From Hydrogenophaga aromaticivorans (GTDB lineage Bacteria > Pseudomonadota > Gammaproteobacteria > Burkholderiales > Burkholderiaceae_C), in the NCBI RefSeq assembly GCF_013387465.1, contig NZ_VYGV01000001.1, positions 242,501 through 306,500 of the forward strand: a DNA stretch of 64,000 bases, in the 5' to 3' direction. Each line of letters starts with the position of its first letter. The stretch's first letter is position 1. Shown in pieces: positions 2,136 through 28,747 of this stretch. The position numbers and the translations under genes are program-made. The notes under the pieces were generated by a model, which saw only the letters and a list, made by a program, of their open reading frames with translations, ran no database searches and was not told the origin of the DNA.

Positions 2136-4301
2136 ATGCCCACGACACCCCAACGCCTCGCACACGATTTCCAGCGAGCGCTGCAAGACCTGCAGAAGGA
2201 ACGGGAACGCACCCGCCAGCTCATGGCCGAGCTGGACCGGCAGAACCACGAACTGGACCGGTTGCGCAGCTCGGTGCACCGCGAATCCAACAGCCGCCTG
2301 CTGGCCGAAGAGGCGCTGGACGAAACCAGCGACCGATTGCAACTCGCGGTTGAAGCCGCCGGCCTGGCGCTGTGGGACTGGCAGTTGCCGTCACAACAGG
2401 TTTTCCTGACGGCGCGCTGGGGCGAAATGCTGGGCGACATCGCTGTCGATGGCTACTGGGACACATCAGCCCTGATGGATCGGGTACACCCCGACGACCG
2501 CGCCCGTGCACAAGCGACCGCAGGCGAACTGCTGCAGGGCCGGCAGCAGCGCACGGTGGTTCAGTACCGCGTGCGCACCGCCGACGGATGGCTGTGGATC
2601 GAAAGCCATGGCATGGTCGCCGAGCACGACGCCAAGGGCCGCCCGCTGCGGCTGATGGGATCGCACGCCGACATCAGCGAACGCAAGCGCGTGGAAGCCG
2701 AAGGTGCACAAGCCCGCGCCCAGGCGGAGCAGGCGAGCCAGGCCAAAAGCGAGTTCCTGGCCAACATCAGTCATGAGGTACGCACACCGCTCAATGCCCT
2801 CATGGGGCTGACCCGCCTGCTGATGGATTCGCCGCTCAACACCGAGCAGAAAAGCTGGCTGGACCTGATGGACAGCTCGGCCCACGCCCTGCTCGACCTG
2901 CTCAACGACGTGCTGGACCTCTCGCGCATCGAGGCCGGCAAGCTCAGCATGGAGAACGTGCAGTTTCCGCTGCGCGAAACGCTGGCGGAAGTCAGTGCGC
3001 TCTATGCCGAGCAGGCGCGCGCCAAACCGCTGAGCTGGGAACTCCAGTTGTCGGCCCGGTTGCCCGACCACATGCAAGGCGATCCGGGGCGCCTGCGGCA
3101 GGTGCTGAACAACCTGCTCTCCAACGCGCTGAAGTTCACTCCCCGCGGCGGGCGCATCCGCCTGACCGCAGACTTGCTGACCGGCAGCGCTGGCGGCGCG
3201 CACCAGTTGCGCCTGCAGGTGCAGGACAGTGGTGTGGGCATCGCGAAAAAGCACCAGTCCACCATCTTTGATGCTTTCACCCAGGCCGATGCTTCCACCG
3301 CGCGCAAGTTCGGCGGCAGTGGCCTGGGTCTGGCGATCTGTTCGCGCCTGGTCCAGCTCATGGGCGGCCGCATCGACCTGGTGAGCGAACTCGGCCAGGG
3401 CAGCACCTTCACCGTCACACTGCCGCTGGGCGAAACCGCGGTGGCCGACACCGGCCCGCTGAGCGCCCCCATGGAGCTCAACGAGGTGGCGCAGGCCGGA
3501 CAACGCTTTGCCGGTCTGTGCGTGCTGGTGGCCGAAGACCACCCGGTCAACGAACTGCTGATGAAACAACTGTTGCAGCGTCTGGGCTGCAGCGTGCGGC
3601 TCGCTCGCGACGGCGAGCAGGCGGTCGCGCAGTGGGAACTGGGTGGCGTGGACCTCGTGCTGATGGACGTTCAGATGCCCGGCAGCAACGGCCTGGAGGC
3701 GACGCGGCGCATCCGTGAGCGAGAGATCCAGCTGGGCCGTCCGCACACACCGATCGTGGCGGTCACGGCCAACGCCATGAACGGCGACCGCGAAGCCTGC
3801 CTGCTGGCCGGGATGGACGGCTACTCGTCCAAGCCCGTCAGTCCACAAACGCTGATCCGCGCCATGGACGAAGCCCTGATGCGCAGCGCCCGCCGCGTCG
3901 TCCCGCGCGCCGCAACGCCGGAGCCTCCCCCTGCGCACCAGCCCGCTGTGGCGGGACCGCTGGACATCGACAAGCTGCGCCGGCGGCTGGATGGCGACGA
4001 AACCACCCTGCGCCAGCTCGCCCAGGCCATGCGAACCGATCTGCGCCAGCGCTTGCTGGCGCTGCAACAGGCGCTTCTGGCGCAAGACATCGACATGGCC
4101 GTGGCCCATGCGCACGGGCTCAAGGGTTCGCTGGGCAGCATGACAGCCGAGCGCGGCGCCCGCCTGGCCAAGGGACTGGAACTGGCCGCGCGTTCACGCG
4201 ACTGGCCACTCTTCGGCCGCGCCTTGCCGCTGATGCAGGCCGAGGCAAAGCAGATCGATGGCGCGTTGGCCGCGCTGCTCAGCGCGCCGCCAGTCGCTTG
4301 A
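2136..4301 (+). CDS. soluble hybrid sensor histidine kinase (PAS-HisKA-HATPase-REC-Hpt)
   Basis: A 721-residue multidomain phosphorelay kinase. In order: an N-terminal coiled coil (about 10-62), a PAS/PAC domain (about 65-185), a HisKA box with phospho-accepting H213 (ISHEVRTPLN), an HATPase domain with N box (NNLLSNALKF) and G boxes (DSGVGI, GGSGLGLAI), a receiver with D511 (LVLMDVQMPG), and an Hpt domain with candidate H660 (AHGLKGS). No transmembrane segment or signal peptide is visible, so it should sense a cytosolic cue through PAS. The output regulator is not adjacent. The 3' end overlaps the convergent MocR-type gene by 23 bp. Domain assignment is secure; the stimulus is unknown. Confidence 0.93.
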   Translation: MPTTPQRLAHDFQRALQDLQKERERTRQLMAELDRQNHELDRLRSSVHRESNSRLLAEEALDETSDRLQLAVEAAGLALWDWQLPSQQVFLTARWGEMLGDIAVDGYWDTSALMDRVHPDDRARAQATAGELLQGRQQRTVVQYRVRTADGWLWIESHGMVAEHDAKGRPLRLMGSHADISERKRVEAEGAQARAQAEQASQAKSEFLANISHEVRTPLNALMGLTRLLMDSPLNTEQKSWLDLMDSSAHALLDLLNDVLDLSRIEAGKLSMENVQFPLRETLAEVSALYAEQARAKPLSWELQLSARLPDHMQGDPGRLRQVLNNLLSNALKFTPRGGRIRLTADLLTGSAGGAHQLRLQVQDSGVGIAKKHQSTIFDAFTQADASTARKFGGSGLGLAICSRLVQLMGGRIDLVSELGQGSTFTVTLPLGETAVADTGPLSAPMELNEVAQAGQRFAGLCVLVAEDHPVNELLMKQLLQRLGCSVRLARDGEQAVAQWELGGVDLVLMDVQMPGSNGLEATRRIREREIQLGRPHTPIVAVTANAMNGDREACLLAGMDGYSSKPVSPQTLIRAMDEALMRSARRVVPRAATPEPPPAHQPAVAGPLDIDKLRRRLDGDETTLRQLAQAMRTDLRQRLLALQQALLAQDIDMAVAHAHGLKGSLGSMTAERGARLAKGLELAARSRDWPLFGRALPLMQAEAKQIDGALAALLSAPPVA

Positions 4302-22562: not shown

Positions 22563-23288
22563 GGGTACGCGGCGTCCGTTGTGACGCGTGGTGAGGTGAC
22601 CGGCTTTGGCATGGCATCGAATTCATTCCGCCGGAGAGCGACACGCCCCACAGCGCTGGTTTCCATCGGGGTCCCGAAAGCAGGCGCTGGCACGATGCCC
22701 GCGGTGCTCAGGCCTCGACCCGGCTGACCTTCGGGAGGCTGCCCTTGGGCGGGAGCGCCGCTGAACCGCTCTCGGCAGAAAACGCGAACATGTTGCCAAC
22801 GCGGGTGGAGGGCGTCAATCTGCGACCCAACGTGGCAAGGGGTCGTCCGCCAGAGAAAACCCTGCAAAAAGGGCATTTGGCAGCGCTCACTTATGCACAA
22901 ATTCTGTGCCACGGACCCGCAGCGAACGCCAGGAGGAAAAACCACCCTCCCAGGGTGGCGCATCGGGTGCACATCCGCGAAGACCGTTGATTTCATTGGC
23001 TTCTGGAGCCTGCTTTTTTTCCGTGCAATTCAAGCAAGCCCTTGATTTAAAAGGCCTCCCGGCCTGTGCCCAGACACTATCAACAAAGTTATCCACAGAA
23101 ACTCTGGACAGCGGCAAAAGCCAAAGCAAATCAAAGACTTACACCGCATTCCCACAGTTCAACCGAAGAAAGAGACCGCGCGGGGTCTGCTGGCACCCGG
23201 GCAGCGAAGCGCGACCGGGCCTTGGCGCGCGGTGGCCCTGCCGGAAGGGACTCTGGATGGAACGCAGGTGCCGGTCTGTGCGCAGCGC
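22563..23288. other. 726-bp intergenic region containing repeat element copy A
   Basis: No convincing gene is visible between the phytochelatin-synthase-like gene and the DUF4396 gene. The first about 320 bp show nothing recognisable. The stretch 22886-23175 is a diverged copy of the sequence upstream of priA and carries two perfect DnaA boxes (described separately). The remainder to 23288 shows nothing notable. Confidence 0.6.
22886..23175 (+). repeat. duplicated intergenic element with DnaA boxes, copy A
   Basis: This block aligns with 26259-26537. Shared strings include CTCACTTATGCACAAAT, CTGCTTTTTTTCCG, CCCTTGATTTA, TATCAACAAAGTTATCCACA and AAATCAAAGACTTACA. Perfect DnaA boxes (TTATNCACA) lie at 22891-22899 and 23089-23097. 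Long blocks are identical and substitutions show no coding pattern. No gene is attached downstream in this copy. Confidence 0.8.
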
Positions 23289-23792
23289 TCAATGGTGAGC
23301 ATGAGCCACTGCGTGGCCCCGACCTCGGGCAATGAGCCAACGGTTGACCGGGTACGCGGCCAGGCCTGCGACGGCGAGTGAAACCGCCATGCTGACCCAG
23401 AAGAACAGGGAGTCGATGGAAGCGTCCATGGCGCCGGGAATGGCCAACATGAGGGCGTTGTCAACGATCTCCATGAGGGTGATGGAGGCCGCGTCGGCGG
23501 CGAGCGCGATCTTGAGTGCGGCCTTGAGCGGGTATCCCCGGCGGAGGAAGGGGAGCGCGGTGAGCGCAAAGCCGGCAAAAAATGCAAGACCGACCGCCAG
23601 GGCGATGGTGGCGCTGTTGCTCCACCCCCAGGCGGTTCCGATGAGCAGGCCCGCCACTTCGCCGATGGCGCAGCCCAGAAGGCAGTGCAGTGTGGCCACC
23701 AGCGCCGTGCGGTTCAGTGAGTCGCCACCCTGGCTGGCTGGGCGCTGCCCGCCATGGCCGGCGGGATGAGGAACGGGGTGCGCGTGATCCAT
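23289..23792 (-). CDS. DUF4396-type small membrane protein
   Basis: A 167-residue inner-membrane protein with four or five hydrophobic helices after a 30-residue polar N terminus. Both ends are rich in histidine (MDHAHPVPHPAGHGG at the start, HAVAHAHH at the end), which may bind metal. The core (LHCLLGCAIGEVAGLLIG and TLMEIVDNALML) resembles DUF4396 proteins, whose function is unknown. The ATG at 23792 has an AAGGAG ribosome binding site six bases upstream, which decides the start. It is downstream of, and may share a promoter with, the methyltransferase gene. Confidence 0.75.
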   Translation of the reverse strand: MDHAHPVPHPAGHGGQRPASQGGDSLNRTALVATLHCLLGCAIGEVAGLLIGTAWGWSNSATIALAVGLAFFAGFALTALPFLRRGYPLKAALKIALAADAASITLMEIVDNALMLAIPGAMDASIDSLFFWVSMAVSLAVAGLAAYPVNRWLIARGRGHAVAHAHH

Positions 23793-24000
23793 GTTGAAGC
23801 TCCTTGGTCGAGTCGGGGACCACAGCCTGGACGTTCCCATCATGGGAAGGTCAAGCGGCACGTTCAAAGCAGGGTTATCCGACGCGCGACCTTGGGTCCC
23901 ACCACACCGTTGCGGCCACGGGTTCAGAGCCCAGGATGAAACGGCGGGCACACAGGACGCAGGCCGCAGCGGGTCCGGGTCCGGGTCCGGTTGGACAAAA

Positions 24001-24810
24001 TCAGGTGTCGCGGCGCACCCTGCCGCGGACGGCCCAGGCCCGCGAACTGAGCGAGATGGCACCGTCCGCTGCCTGCGGCAACGCCGACTTCAGCTGGTCT
24101 CTCAGACTGGCGCGTTGTGCTTCGGGCAGTGACATCGCATAGGCTGGCGCGGGCCCCTGTCCGCCGAGAAAGGGACGCCAGTAGTCGTCGAAGTCGGCGA
24201 ACGCCGCTGTCACTTGGAGAGGGCCCGTTTCCACCTCGGTGAGTCCGGCGAACTCGAAGGCCGCGTTCAGGGCGGATGGCTCGCACAGTGGGAAGCGCGA
24301 ACCTTCGTGGAGGGGTGCGGCCGCTGGATCCAGAGACACCGCAACGTCCCAGAAGACCCTGATGATCTCCATGCCATCGGCGTAGTCCCAGACATAGGCG
24401 GCGATGGTGCCACCGCTGGCAGCGACCCGTTGCATCTCCGCGAGGGCGGCCGGCAACGCAGGAACAAAGTTCAGCACCAGCCCCGAGACGACGACGTCAC
24501 ATGCGGCGTCATCCAGCGGGAGCGCTGCCGCATCGCCAGCCAGGAAGCGGGCTCGGCCGGCGAGGTTCTGGGCCGCCAGCTGGAGGAATCCCTCAGAAGG
24601 TTCGACGCCCACCAGACTGCTGGGGCGGCAGTGATCCAGGATGGCGGCGGACAGCGCGCCCGTGCCGCAGCCGACATCCAGCCACCGCTGGCCGGCGGGC
24701 TGGTCCAGCCAGGCCAGGAAGAGCGGGGCCATCCTGCGGCTCCAGCGGCCGATGTACTGTTCATACGGGTTGCCGCGTGCCCAGGTATCGGAAACAGGGG
24801 GGGTGTTCAT
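24001..24810 (-). CDS. class I SAM-dependent methyltransferase
   Basis: A 269-residue soluble Rossmann-fold methyltransferase. Motif I is WLDVGCGTGALSAAIL, the acidic residue ending motif II is in VGVEPSEG, motif III is in FLAGDAAALPL, and motif IV is in CDVVVSGLVLNF. This is the UbiE/Methyltransf_11/25 type. The substrate is unknown and the C-terminal domain gives no clear hint. It precedes the DUF4396 gene on the same strand, with 208 bp between, and is divergent from hemE with 242 bp between their starts. Confidence 0.85.
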   Translation of the reverse strand: MNTPPVSDTWARGNPYEQYIGRWSRRMAPLFLAWLDQPAGQRWLDVGCGTGALSAAILDHCRPSSLVGVEPSEGFLQLAAQNLAGRARFLAGDAAALPLDDAACDVVVSGLVLNFVPALPAALAEMQRVAASGGTIAAYVWDYADGMEIIRVFWDVAVSLDPAAAPLHEGSRFPLCEPSALNAAFEFAGLTEVETGPLQVTAAFADFDDYWRPFLGGQGPAPAYAMSLPEAQRASLRDQLKSALPQAADGAISLSSRAWAVRGRVRRDT

Positions 24811-25052
24811 CGCTTGCGACCTCCGCGGATTCGATTTGCGAGGGCTGGCGAGCTGATTGGCGAGCAGCGGGCATCAGCCGCGAAACGGGCGGTTTGTTTT
24901 CTTCTTCTGAACAGGCAGTGTAAGTTTCAACCACCGATCCGGGCAATGGCCGATACCGCCTGACCCGCCTGCCTGCGCTGGCTCAAAGTGCGGACAAAGC
25001 CCAGGCGGGATAATCGCGGCTTCCCTTTGACGCCACCGCACCGGACACCCCC

Positions 25053-26147
25053 ATGAGCTTTGCCCCCCTGCAGAACGACACCTTCCTGCGCGCCTGCCTG
25101 CGCCAATCGACCGACCACACGCCGGTGTGGCTGATGCGCCAGGCCGGCCGCTACCTGCCGGAGTACTGCGCCACGCGCGCCCGGGCGGGTTCGTTCATGG
25201 GGCTGGCGACGAATGTGGACTACGCGACCGAGGTGACGCTGCAGCCTCTGGAGCGTTATGCGCTGGACGCGGCGATCCTGTTCTCGGACATCCTGACCGT
25301 GCCGGACGCGATGGGCCTGGGCCTGTCGTTCGCGCAGGGTGAGGGCCCGAAGTTTGCCAAGACGGTGCGCACCGAGGCCGACGTGGCCACGCTGGCCGTG
25401 CCGGACATGGCCAAGCTGCGCTACGTGTTTGACGCCGTGACCAGCATCCGCAAGGCGCTGAACGGCCGGGTGCCGCTGATCGGTTTTTCGGGCAGCCCCT
25501 GGACGCTGGCCTGCTACATGGTGGAGGGCGGCGGCTCGGACGACTACCGCGCCGTGAAGAGCCTGATGTACAGCCGTCCGGACCTGATGCACCGCATCCT
25601 GGCCATCAACGCCGACTCGGTGGCGACGTATCTGAACGCGCAGATCGAAGCGGGTGCGCAGGCCGTCATGATTTTCGACAGCTGGGGTGGCGTGCTGGCC
25701 GACGGCAAGTTCCAGGACTTTTCGCTGGCCTACACAAAGCGCGTGCTGGCGCAGCTGAAGACCGAGAAGGACGGCGTGAAGATCCCGCGCATCGTGTTCA
25801 CCAAGGGCGGCGGCCTGTGGCTGGACGACATGAAAGACCTGGACTGCGAAGCCCTGGGCCTGGACTGGACGGTGAATCTGGCCAAGGCGCGCGCGGCGGT
25901 GGGCGACTCGAAAGCCCTGCAGGGCAACATCGACCCCAATGTGCTGTTCGCCCCGCCGGAGGCGATCGACCGCGAAGTGGCGGCCGTGCTGGAAAGTTTC
26001 GGCCCGCCGCACCAGGGCGCCGGCACCGGCCCCACGCACATCTTCAACCTGGGCCACGGCATCAGCCAGTACACCCCGCCAGAGAACGTGAAGGTGCTGG
26101 TGGACGCGGTGCACACGCACTCGAAACGCCTGCGCACGCAAGGCTGA
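25053..26147 (+). CDS. hemE: uroporphyrinogen decarboxylase
   Basis: A 364-residue cytosolic enzyme that converts uroporphyrinogen III to coproporphyrinogen III in heme synthesis. Family signatures are [13 protein letters not shown] near the N terminus, the [10 protein letters not shown] segment with the essential aspartate, [17 protein letters not shown], and [13 protein letters not shown] near the C terminus. The length is normal. It lies 398 bp upstream of priA; a hemE-priA arrangement is, as I recall, common in Burkholderiales. The spacing contains a DnaA-box element, so the two genes need not be cotranscribed. Confidence 0.97.
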
Positions 26148-26545
26148 ACACGGTCCTGGCCAGACCGGCCGGGCGGTCCCGGACCGTCACAGGTGGGTCC
26201 AAAAACCGGCCGGCGACAAGCCCTTAGCACAAAAGCCGGAAAAAAACCGCTTGACACATCTCACTTATGCACAAATCTTGTGCTGCGGCGCCGCAACAAT
26301 TTTTCAGCGCTGGCGAATCGGTTCGGCGCCAGTCAACTCCCGCAAGTTGTTGATTTGATTGACTTTTGATTTCTGCTTTTTTTCCGGGCAGTCTAAGCAA
26401 ACCCTTGATTTACAAGGCTTCCCGGCCCGCAAAACGCACCTATCAACAAAGTTATCCACAGAAAGTCTGGATAGCCCCGGAAGCCATGACAAATCAAAGA
26501 CTTACATCGCTTTCCGACAGTTGAACTGAGGAAATCCCGCTAACC
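26148..26545. other. 398-bp hemE-priA intergenic region
   Basis: No gene is visible. The first about 110 bp are unremarkable, and from about 26259 the region is occupied by the duplicated element with DnaA boxes that runs up to the priA start. Confidence 0.7.
26259..26537 (+). repeat. duplicated intergenic element with DnaA boxes, copy B (upstream of priA)
   Basis: Homologous to 22886-23175. Perfect DnaA boxes lie at 26265-26273 (TTATGCACA) and 26452-26460 (TTATCCACA), 187 bp apart against 198 bp in copy A. Between them is an AT-rich stretch around 26345-26392 (TTGTTGATTTGATTGACTTT). It ends 8 bp before the priA start codon, so it includes the priA leader and probably its promoter. Confidence 0.8.
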
Positions 26546-28747
26546 ATGGTTTTTTGGCCCAGCATCGTCGTCGCCACCCCGGCCCACAGCGGCGTGGGTG
26601 CGACGCTCACCTACCGAAGTGAGTTGTCGCTCGCACCGGGCGCGCTGGTGCGCGTGCCGCTGGGCTCCCGCGAGGTGCTGGGCGTGGTCTGGGACTGCCC
26701 GGATACCCCGCCAGAAGGGCTCACCGAAGCCCGGACCAAGGTGGTCGCGGGCGTGCTGGAGGGCCTGCCGGCATTGAACGGGTGCTGGCGCCAGCTGGTG
26801 AAATTCAGCGCCCAGTATTACCAGCGCAGCCTGGGCGAGGTGGCGCTGGCCGCCCTGCCGCCCCAGTTGCGCGAGCTCGACAGCACCCAGCTGGCGCGTC
26901 GGCTCAAGCGCCGCGCCAAGGCGGCGGCAGGGGTGCCGCCCACAGCGCCCGAGGCGCTGCAGGGCCACGACCTGAGCGCCGAGCAGGCCGAAGCGCTGCA
27001 GGCGCTGGCCGCGGCCACCGCGCCGGTGCTGCTGTATGGCGCCACCGGCAGCGGCAAGACCGAGGTGTATTTGCGCGCCACGCAGGCGGTGCTGGAAACC
27101 GCCGCGCCCGAAAACGAGGCACCCACCCAGGTGCTGGTGATGGTGCCCGAGATCAACCTCACGCCGCAGCTGGAGGCGCGTTTTCGCGAGCGCTTCGAAC
27201 CCGCATTTGGCGCCGGCTCGGTGGTCTGCCTGCACAGCGGCATGACACCGGCGCAGCGCCTGACCAGTTGGCTGGCCGCGCACACCGGCAGCGCGCGCAT
27301 CGTGCTGGGCACGCGCATGGCCGTGTTCGCCAGCCTGCCGGGGCTGCGGCTGATCGTGGTGGATGAGGAGCACGACCCGAGCTACAAGAGCCAGGAGGGG
27401 GCGCGCTATTCGGCGCGGGATCTGGCGGTGTACCGGGCGAAGGTGGAGAGCGAGGCGCTGGCGGCTGGCGGGGCACTACTTCAAGCGGGCCCTCACCCCC
27501 GCCCTCTCCCAGAGGGAGAGGGGGCAAGAGGGGGAGGCGTCGTCAACCCGCGTTGCCAGGTGCTGCTGGGCTCGGCCACGCCTTCGCTGGAGAGCTGGCA
27601 CGCGGCGGACCAGGGGCGCTACCTGCGACTGGAAATGCCGGGTCGCATTGGCGGCGGGGCGCTGCCGCGCCTGCGCCTGGTGGACATGAACCACCAGCCC
27701 AAGGGCGCGGTGCTGGCGCCCCCGCTGGTGGCGGCCATGGGCGAGCGCATCGCGCGTGGCGAGCAGTGCCTGGTGCTGCTCAACCGCCGCGGCTACGCAC
27801 CGGTGCTGGCCTGCCACGACTGCGGCTGGAAGAGCGGTTGCCCGCACTGCAGCGCCTACCGCGTGTTCCACAAGCTCGACCGCACCCTGCGCTGCCACCA
27901 CTGTGGCTTCACCGAACGCGTGCCGCGCGCCTGCCCGGACTGCGGCAACCTCGACATCGCACCCGTGGGCCGCGGCACCGAGCAGATCGAAGAACAGCTC
28001 GCCGGCCTGCTGGTCGACGTGAAACGGCCCGACGGCCAGCCCGCGCGCGTGGCCCGCATGGACGCCGACTCGACCCGCCTCAAGGGCAGCCTGGAAGTGC
28101 AGCTCGCGGCGCTGCACAGCGGCGAGGTCGACGTGCTGGTGGGCACGCAGATGATCGCCAAGGGCCACGACTTCCGCCGCATCACGCTGGTGGCCGGCAT
28201 CAATGCCGACTCGGCCCTGTTCGCCAGCGACTACCGCGCACCCGAGCGCCTGTTTGCCCTGCTCATGCAGGCGGCGGGCCGCGCCGGGCGCGACGCCGCG
28301 CAGAGCGGCGCGAGCGAGATGTGGATCCAGACCTGGTACCCGCAGCACCCGCTGTTTGTCACGCTGAAAAAACACGACTACCCGGCCTTCGCCGCCGAGC
28401 AGCTGACCGAACGCGAGCAGGCCGGCATGCCGCCCTACGGCTTCCAGGCGCTGCTGCGCGCCGATGCACGCACCCAGCAGGCGGCGCAGGCGTTTCTGAA
28501 CATCGCCGCCGAGCAGGCCGCCGGCCTGCCGCACCGCGACCAGATCACGCTCTACCCCGCGGTTCCGCTGACGATCCAGCGCGTGGCCAATGTGGAGCGC
28601 GCGCAGATGCTGGTGGAGACCGATTCGCGCGGTGCGCTGCAGCGCTTTCTGTCGGCCTGGCAGCCGGTGCTGCACGCCTGCCGCAGCGCGCCGGAGGCCA
28701 AGGGCCTGGTGCGCTGGGCGGTGGATGTGGACCCGCTGTCGATTTAG
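26546..28747 (+). CDS. priA: primosomal protein N' (PriA helicase)
   Basis: A 733-residue replication-restart helicase that reloads the replisome at stalled forks. Walker A is GATGSGKTEVY, the DEEH box lies in VVDEEHDPSYKSQEG, and the zinc-binding region has CHDCGWKSGCPHC and CHHCGF with CPDCG. Motif GSATPSLESW and the late QAAGRAGR motif are also present. Between the conserved RDLAVYRAK and QVLLGSATPS segments there is an extra stretch of about 28 residues containing PHPRPLPEGEGARGGG, encoded by an inserted palindromic repeat (27490-27537). The frame is maintained, so the protein is probably functional. Confidence 0.96.
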   Translation: MVFWPSIVVATPAHSGVGATLTYRSELSLAPGALVRVPLGSREVLGVVWDCPDTPPEGLTEARTKVVAGVLEGLPALNGCWRQLVKFSAQYYQRSLGEVALAALPPQLRELDSTQLARRLKRRAKAAAGVPPTAPEALQGHDLSAEQAEALQALAAATAPVLLYGATGSGKTEVYLRATQAVLETAAPENEAPTQVLVMVPEINLTPQLEARFRERFEPAFGAGSVVCLHSGMTPAQRLTSWLAAHTGSARIVLGTRMAVFASLPGLRLIVVDEEHDPSYKSQEGARYSARDLAVYRAKVESEALAAGGALLQAGPHPRPLPEGEGARGGGVVNPRCQVLLGSATPSLESWHAADQGRYLRLEMPGRIGGGALPRLRLVDMNHQPKGAVLAPPLVAAMGERIARGEQCLVLLNRRGYAPVLACHDCGWKSGCPHCSAYRVFHKLDRTLRCHHCGFTERVPRACPDCGNLDIAPVGRGTEQIEEQLAGLLVDVKRPDGQPARVARMDADSTRLKGSLEVQLAALHSGEVDVLVGTQMIAKGHDFRRITLVAGINADSALFASDYRAPERLFALLMQAAGRAGRDAAQSGASEMWIQTWYPQHPLFVTLKKHDYPAFAAEQLTEREQAGMPPYGFQALLRADARTQQAAQAFLNIAAEQAAGLPHRDQITLYPAVPLTIQRVANVERAQMLVETDSRGALQRFLSAWQPVLHACRSAPEAKGLVRWAVDVDPLSI
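27490..27537. repeat. palindromic REP-like element inserted in frame within priA
   Basis: The block starts CCCTCACCCCCG, then has a perfect 9-bp inverted repeat (CCCTCTCCC at 27502-27510, AGA loop, GGGAGAGGG at 27514-27522) and a G-rich tail. Short repeats of this type are widespread in proteobacterial genomes, mostly intergenic, and their translated form PHPRPLPEGEG is familiar as an insertion peptide. Here it lies inside the helicase gene without breaking the frame. Confidence 0.75.

Follow-up and report, generated by a model that had tools for sequence, protein, structure and literature searches.

The 64,000-nucleotide stretch of the Hydrogenophaga aromaticivorans genome considered here (contig NZ_VYGV01000001.1, positions 242,501 to 306,500; hereafter the window, in whose coordinates the features are given) carries two copies, A and B, of an intergenic element built around DnaA boxes. 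Copy B occupies the gap between hemE and priA, the gene of the replication restart helicase, while copy A lies upstream of hemE, past two minus-strand open reading frames (ORFs), with no gene attached. An earlier reading of this DNA, made from the letters alone (the sequence-only reading), had described two alignable blocks, each with a second DnaA box about 190 bp after the first, the one leading into priA and the other geneless. Alignment, blastn and a search of the own genome bear out the blocks, NCBIfam matches confirm the identity of hemE and priA, and the pairing of boxes likewise stands; the exact distance between the distal box and the middle box of a three-box core (box II) is 187 bp for copy B and, longer by 11 bp or about one helical turn, 198 bp for copy A.

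The copies can be aligned along their length and are, by blastn, 79% identical over 189 bp and 83% identical over 36 bp. The genome-wide count of copies proposed by the earlier reading gives two, since copy B as query against its own genome (5.63 Mb, 28 contigs) has good matches only in A and B, the next-best (E = 0.065 over 36 bp) being a core between xseA and exbB. The divergence between A and B is about that between B and the copies of other genus members, and A still keeps the distal box and core. No copy A was seen in three genus members, in stretches reaching 5.7-7.3 kb upstream of hemE; the stretch of a fourth reaches only 0.7 kb upstream of that gene.

The box TTATNCACA occurs at four sites in the window (22891, 23089, 26265 and 26452), all on the plus strand, against a mean of 0.18 and a maximum of 2 in 100 shuffles of the window. 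Genome-wide it is scarcely enriched (28 sites, against 23 for the reversed pattern), and the signal therefore consists in clustering and architecture rather than in number. An Rfam search returned no match to the element and a single sub-threshold match, inside hemE, and a structured RNA was accordingly rejected. A scan limited to the sigma-70 type found no such promoter in 22600-26700.

Table 1. Features of the two copies and their neighbouring genes, in window coordinates.
Feature	Position	Strand	Remarks
Copy B (entire element), in the hemE-priA gap	26259..26537	+	alignment, genome search, family loci
B distal DnaA box TTATGCACA	26265..26273	+	187 bp upstream of core box II
B IHF-like site CAAGTTGTTGATT	26343..26355	-	109 bp upstream of box II; matches YAANNNNTTGATW; 1 mismatch to published TAANNNNTTGATW
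B second IHF-like match CAAACCCTTGATT	26398..26410	-	54 bp upstream of box II; overlaps CCTTGATTTACAAGG inverted repeat
B core box III CTATCAACA	26440..26448	+	2 mismatches to TTWTNCACA
B core box II TTATCCACA	26452..26460	+	
B core box I TCTGGATAG, inverted, degenerate	26466..26474	-	2 mismatches
B downstream IHF-like site AATCAAAGACTTA	26492..26504	+	40 bp beyond the start of box II
Copy A (entire element), no attached gene	22886..23175	+	
A distal DnaA box TTATGCACA	22891..22899	+	198 bp upstream of box II
A counterpart of upstream IHF-like site AAGACCGTTGATT	22980..22992	-	2 mismatches
A second IHF-like match CAAGCCCTTGATT	23035..23047	-	54 bp upstream of box II
A core box III CTATCAACA	23077..23085	+	
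A core box II TTATCCACA	23089..23097	+	
A core box I TCTGGACAG, inverted, degenerate	23103..23111	-	3 mismatches
A downstream IHF-like site AATCAAAGACTTA	23129..23141	+	
hemE, uroporphyrinogen decarboxylase, upstream neighbour of B	25053..26147	+	TIGR01464, 410 bits (NCBIfam)
priA, replication restart helicase, follows B	26546..28747	+	TIGR00595, 478 bits; NF004067, 793 bits (NCBIfam)

Core geometry in the window and in E. coli

Read along the plus strand, each copy presents the same order: the distal box, a site on the opposite strand resembling that of integration host factor (IHF), a second IHF-like match, the core and a downstream IHF-like site. The core string is CTATCAACA-AAG-TTATCCACA-GAAAS-TCTGGAYAG, a 9-3-9-5-9 layout in which two direct boxes 3 bp apart are followed, after 5 bp, by an inverted one. 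The same script recovers this layout in both E. coli DnaA-reactivating sequences (DARS), as TAATACACA-3-TTATCCACA-5-AGTGGATAA in the DARS1 region and TTCTTCACA-3-CTATCCACA-5-GGTGAATAA in the DARS2 region, where there is also a second, weaker match (at 3974 of locus L208, with 2, 0 and 3 mismatches). For E. coli, too, the boxes have been described as equally spaced in the two DARS, box I running opposite to II and III (PMC5742627). The element thus has the three boxes I-III at fixed spacing with box I opposed, box I being degenerate in the window copies. A strict test for this core gives no match in the E. coli oriC or datA stretches, nor in an 800-kb sample of two family genomes. In the own genome it is passed by three of the nine exact TTATCCACA sites, namely A, B and the xseA-exbB core; a relaxed test still finds nothing in E. 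coli oriC or in the 800-kb sample.

The likeness to E. coli DARS2 (rppH-mutH) extends upstream. Its core has the order, orientation and 3 and 5 bp spacing of the element's, with a box I less degenerate than in the window copies, and its IHF-like site (1 mismatch) has the same orientation as the element's but stands at -99 instead of about -110, about one turn closer. By sequence match, the element has an upstream IHF-like site at a fixed distance, as in the DARS2 type. A further DnaA box lies about 189 bp upstream of the DARS2 core, which, judging by its place, we take to be DnaA box V of PMC8682772; it points in the opposite orientation, whereas the element's distal box has the orientation of the core. 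Fis-binding sites are part of E. coli DARS2, and our comparison covered DnaA boxes and IHF-like sites. DARS1 (bioD-uvrB) has the same core geometry, within the range scanned no IHF-like site of one mismatch or fewer and, at -189, where other lineages have the distal box, a one-mismatch same-orientation box TTTTTAACA (L209), which is possibly a relic or a matter of chance.

In E. coli datA, which adjoins tRNA genes and not priA, TTATCCACA is followed 65 bp on by an IHF consensus, whose strand is that of the element's site, and 97 bp further by a same-orientation TTATTCACA. These distances are 3 and 0-1 bp off the shortest class of the element (pattern-scan modes 68 and 97-98, as set out below), A and B themselves belonging to longer classes. 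A strict three-box DARS core is absent from datA; there, an inverted box comes 3 bp after the last box. E. coli oriC has several DnaA boxes, as the element does, but not the core geometry.

Both E. coli DARS loci differ from that of the element, which lies at hemE-priA. Among the 119 + 90 loci of the pattern scan and the core-only set described below (60 of which span only about 1.2 kb) there was no mutH match and rppH was found in one; uvrB matches in 14 loci are weak (E about 1e-4 to 1e-6) and all occur with priA, and we read them as helicase cross-matches. Orthology of locus with DARS1 or DARS2 was rejected on these grounds, and we do not take the E. coli locus to be required for membership of the DARS type.

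Distribution, spacing and position in relatives

With copy B as blastn query, 157 of 300 family genomes (own included) have a match and 143 have none. In the 30 best family loci (own included) hemE precedes and priA follows the element, and the box distances are 186-188 bp. Over these 30 sequences conservation is 0.74-1.0 in the motif columns (mean 0.99 for the distal box columns of copy B), 0.60 in the rest of the element and 0.46 in the upstream flank, values that are overstated because the sequences are best matches. An inverted repeat, CCTTGATTTACAAGG, lies between the upstream IHF-like site and the core (window 26403-26417), and its columns in the family alignment are conserved at 0.87. 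Twenty of the 143 genomes without a match were checked for a core with relaxed criteria. A core is present in 11 of them, accompanied in 10 by a distal box at 187-190 bp with at most one mismatch; in one of the 11 (L219) the priA match is preceded by the cores at a distance of 1.0-1.4 kb.

At the level of the order, the exact pattern (distal box plus CAAAGTTATCCACA) occurs in 109 of 399 genomes, with none for the reversed control among the matches listed. A scan of named genomes gave at least 119 stretches, of which 74 contain priA, 4 only hemE and 41 neither, the last comprising 6 Firmicutes-type records and 35 others. Of the six, classed as Firmicutes and origin-type, three (L117, L163 and L165) adjoin dnaA and three (L133, L137 and L156) were so grouped by title only; all six were left out of the group counts, those of the gap scans described below included, and kept in the 119 loci, the distance histogram and the set of 101 elements. 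The sequence-only reading had turned on the presence of the element upstream of priA in relatives and on conservation of its boxes above that of the flanking bases; the former holds in these 74 loci and in all 30 best family loci, and the latter in the family alignment.

Judged by the 80 titles listed, the matches range across Betaproteobacteria and other Gammaproteobacteria. The element is doubled within a single stretch in Acidovorax, Paracidovorax, Collimonas, Noviherbaspirillum, Hydrogenophaga and one Burkholderiaceae record, and neighbours away from priA, among 20 flanking proteins examined, include yifB, purL, proA, rapA, murJ and mtnA. In three Burkholderia/Paraburkholderia records (L098, L144 and L153) the element belongs to the 176-bp class and adjoins a yifB-type gene, priA being absent from the stretch examined; in other Paraburkholderia records (L097 and L140) the element stands at priA.

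Searched for alone and class-wide, the core is found in 133 of 370 genomes, again with none for the reversed-pattern control among the matches listed; the window copies escape this strict pattern because their boxes are degenerate. The resulting core-only set comprises 90 usable cores from 76 genomes and 51 families, at loci chosen down a match list and not at random. An exact same-orientation distal box lies at -205 to -165 in 67 of the 90 cores (43 of the 51 families), whereas eleven other 41-bp windows hold 0 to 4 same-orientation boxes each (89 cores with enough upstream sequence) and opposite-strand boxes upstream of the same 89 cores are scattered. An IHF-like site, which in relatives lies about 110 bp upstream of box II, is found with at most one mismatch at -118 to -94 in 54 of the 67 cores that have a distal box, as opposed to 6 of the 23 that lack it.

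The spacing between these parts is not uniform. In the pattern scan, which allowed only 174-200 bp, distal-box distances cluster at 175-180, 186-192 and 197-200, and the distance from distal box to IHF-like site falls into three classes, 67-70, 75-82 and 88-89 bp (34, 59 and 8 of 101 elements), with corresponding values of 69, 76-81 and 88-90 bp (2, 47 and 5) for 54 cores of the core-only set. The classes differ by about one DNA turn, and the periodicity statistic exceeds all of 2000 uniform draws, with a broad best period (about 10.5 to 12) and with related genomes that are not independent. On its other side, the IHF-like site keeps mostly 97-100 bp to box III (50 of 54 core-only and 91 of 101 pattern-scan elements).

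The spacing within the core was followed by gap scans of 86 priA-linked elements (4 loci of this group by hemE only) and 36 others, which give sharp mismatch minima at exactly 5 bp for the inverted and 3 bp for the direct box. With at most two mismatches, the inverted box is present at the 5-bp gap in 44% of the priA-linked elements and 72% of the others, and the direct box at the 3-bp gap in 90% and 92%, the latter gap being favoured in part by the search pattern itself, whose CAAAG determines two letters of box III.

In the chromosome the element lies at 7.7-18.4% of its length from dnaA (0.25-0.8 Mb; median 11.1%) in 23 family genomes, and within 0.9 kb upstream of priA in all 23. These 23 (18 with rounded lengths) come from 27 family genomes in which dnaA was placed, G007 having been dropped for want of a match and G096, G194 and G219 for want of a listed position. 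For comparison, E. coli datA, DARS2 and DARS1 lie 10.1, 20.6 and 32.9% from oriC. In one relative (G182) the skew switches between 583 and 777 kb, with dnaA at 653 kb and the element at 125 kb; in another (G013) the skew is noisy, and its cumulative minimum, at 3.9 Mb, is separated by about 0.4 Mb from dnaA and by about 1.1 Mb from the element. These mappings concern relatives; in the own genome dnaA and the element are on different contigs. In relatives, the position expected of oriC, at the skew switch beside dnaA, is thus not that of the element, and an origin of replication was rejected in view of the G182 switch at dnaA and the distance of the element from that gene.

A candidate DnaA control site and its alternatives

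Judged by its sequence architecture, the element is probably a DARS-type chromosomal DnaA control site with an IHF loop like those of datA and DARS2, present twice in the genome. A locus of the datA/DARS type had been among the options of the sequence-only reading, and the core geometry together with an IHF-like site at fixed distance supports that type well. We prefer reactivation to inactivation because of the DARS core. It also favours this reading that copy A, without priA, preserves the distal box, boxes III and II and the geometry of box I. In this context it is relevant that the genome encodes Hda and both IHF subunits, IHF-alpha and IHF-beta; with the fragments used, the two subunits pass the NF001222 and NF001401 cut-offs and fall just under those of TIGR00988 and TIGR00987.

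The reading implies the following sequence of events. IHF would bend the DNA such that DnaA on the distal box meets DnaA on the core, where ADP-DnaA molecules bound head-to-head on boxes I and II would release their ADP, as has been proposed for E. coli DARS (PMC5742627). The freed DnaA could then reload with ATP, providing more initiation-competent ATP-DnaA before the next round, and the element would in this way counteract Hda-dependent inactivation. Copy A would raise the dose of the site, and any effect on priA transcription would be secondary.

Several observations weigh against this reading. Box I is degenerate in the family, with a mean of 3.1 mismatches in priA-linked elements and 2-3 in the window copies, and boxes I and II are those said to drive ADP release in E. 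coli DARS (PMC5742627, PMC8682772). Likewise, the upstream IHF-like site is weakened in copy A (2 mismatches), 23 of the 90 class-wide cores have no exact distal box, and 9 of the 20 checked family genomes that lack a blastn match have no core at priA. The distal boxes of the core-only set lie mostly at 186-193 (58 of 66, the remaining 8 being spread over 176-183 and 197-201), and the three distance classes therefore rest mainly on the pattern scan. Finally, the loop geometry has a resemblance to that of E. coli datA, which at relaxed settings is itself recovered by the core test (4 mismatches in box I), and the median distance from dnaA is nearer that of datA than those of DARS2 or DARS1.

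A wider proposal, which we put forward only tentatively, is that the element represents a clade-wide and probably ancestral DnaA nucleotide-switch module combining a datA-like IHF loop, made of distal box, IHF site and box III, with a DARS core of boxes III, II and I, of which datA and DARS2 would be specialised descendants. The distal box would be helically phased with the IHF site, and the module could, in principle, switch between hydrolysis and reactivation according to IHF occupancy and the nucleotide state of DnaA.

Rather unlikely, in our estimation, is a datA-like inactivation site, at which DnaA oligomers on the distal box and core would, across the IHF bend, promote hydrolysis of DnaA-bound ATP (datA-dependent DnaA-ATP hydrolysis, DDAH). 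Its box-IHF-box arrangement of 65 and 97 bp resembles that of the element (67-70, 75-82 or 88-90, then mostly 97-100 bp), and the chromosomal distances just mentioned, 11.1% in 23 relatives and 10.1% for datA, agree with it; against it speaks the inverted box I, for which relatives across the class favour the 5-bp gap typical of DARS and which datA lacks at the strict setting.

That the element is instead a DnaA- and IHF-controlled promoter or operator of priA appears improbable; a DnaA-controlled promoter had been among the options of the sequence-only reading. Control of priA would account for the priA neighbourhood in 74 of 119 loci, for priA directly downstream in the 30 best family loci and for its place within 0.9 kb in all 23 family genomes compared. 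However, copy A has no gene; 41 of the 119 loci, 35 of them outside the Firmicutes-type records, are without priA and hemE; elsewhere the neighbours are genes such as yifB, purL, proA, rapA, murJ and mtnA; and no sigma-70-like promoter was found between 22600 and 26700. Passive titration of DnaA, to which we give a hardly better and indeed slightly poorer chance, would be served by several good box matches close together in two copies, but it would work without any set order, orientation or spacing of the boxes and without an IHF site, and the genome has 24 other TTATNCACA sites outside A and B. The last option, an oriC-derived or mobile non-coding repeat, has two window copies, the DnaA boxes and the tandem copies of some relatives in its favour and is nonetheless very improbable, given the G182 skew change at dnaA, the 0.25-0.8 Mb between element and dnaA in 23 genomes, the mere two copies in the genome, the same place at priA in 23 of 23 and the lack of the core in E. 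coli oriC.

On the reading of the element as a DARS-type site, a DARS-like replication timer may extend well beyond E. coli and its close kin. In the literature the DARS2 core has been tied to gamma-proteobacteria related to E. coli (PMC4245941), its conservation has been given as beta or gamma (PMC5742627), DARS-like sequences have been reported in Vibrio cholerae (PMC6090056), and PMC12371093 covers E. coli and Salmonella. We found no report of DARS at priA in the parts of this literature consulted, and literature searches turned up none, a search to which the original DARS paper and the supplements did not belong, such that an earlier report may exist. The fetched cores with this geometry come from 51 families of the class, and most are accompanied by a same-orientation distal box at a preferred distance, an arrangement that we did not encounter in the DARS literature consulted. 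This architecture makes the loop model directly testable and offers a sequence rule for finding DnaA control sites where none are annotated; in Betaproteobacteria it would place such a site beside the replication-restart gene priA.

Further DnaA-box sites in the genome

The third DARS-like core of the genome, between xseA and exbB (contig C11:397117; L004 and L041), lacks a distal box, in which it resembles E. coli DARS1, and has its IHF-like site at -108. The exbB ORF as called from a TTG covers this core, the first in-frame ATG coming after it. By blastn the core has matches in 43 of 120 family genomes, own included, some of them being other loci such as the priA element. In all 12 loci fetched (own included) the core stands beside xseA and exbB; 5 of them have the IHF-like site at -108, and 1 has a distal box (1 mismatch).

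Three further clusters of boxes in the genome are without a DARS core. Two TTATCCACA boxes 382 bp apart, in similar surroundings, lie about 97 kb from dnaA on the contig that carries it (C25:137784-138174; L043), three TTATGCACA sites occur within GTTATGCACAG units on both strands (C26:64539-64882; L042), and two TTATGCACA sites are separated by 135 bp (C23:15699-15842; L044). In the window itself, the G+C content between about 36000 and 64000 is mostly 0.58-0.67, with a rise to 0.70 near 44-46 kb, compared with about 0.64-0.73 leftward, and this part is possibly, to some extent, acquired DNA.

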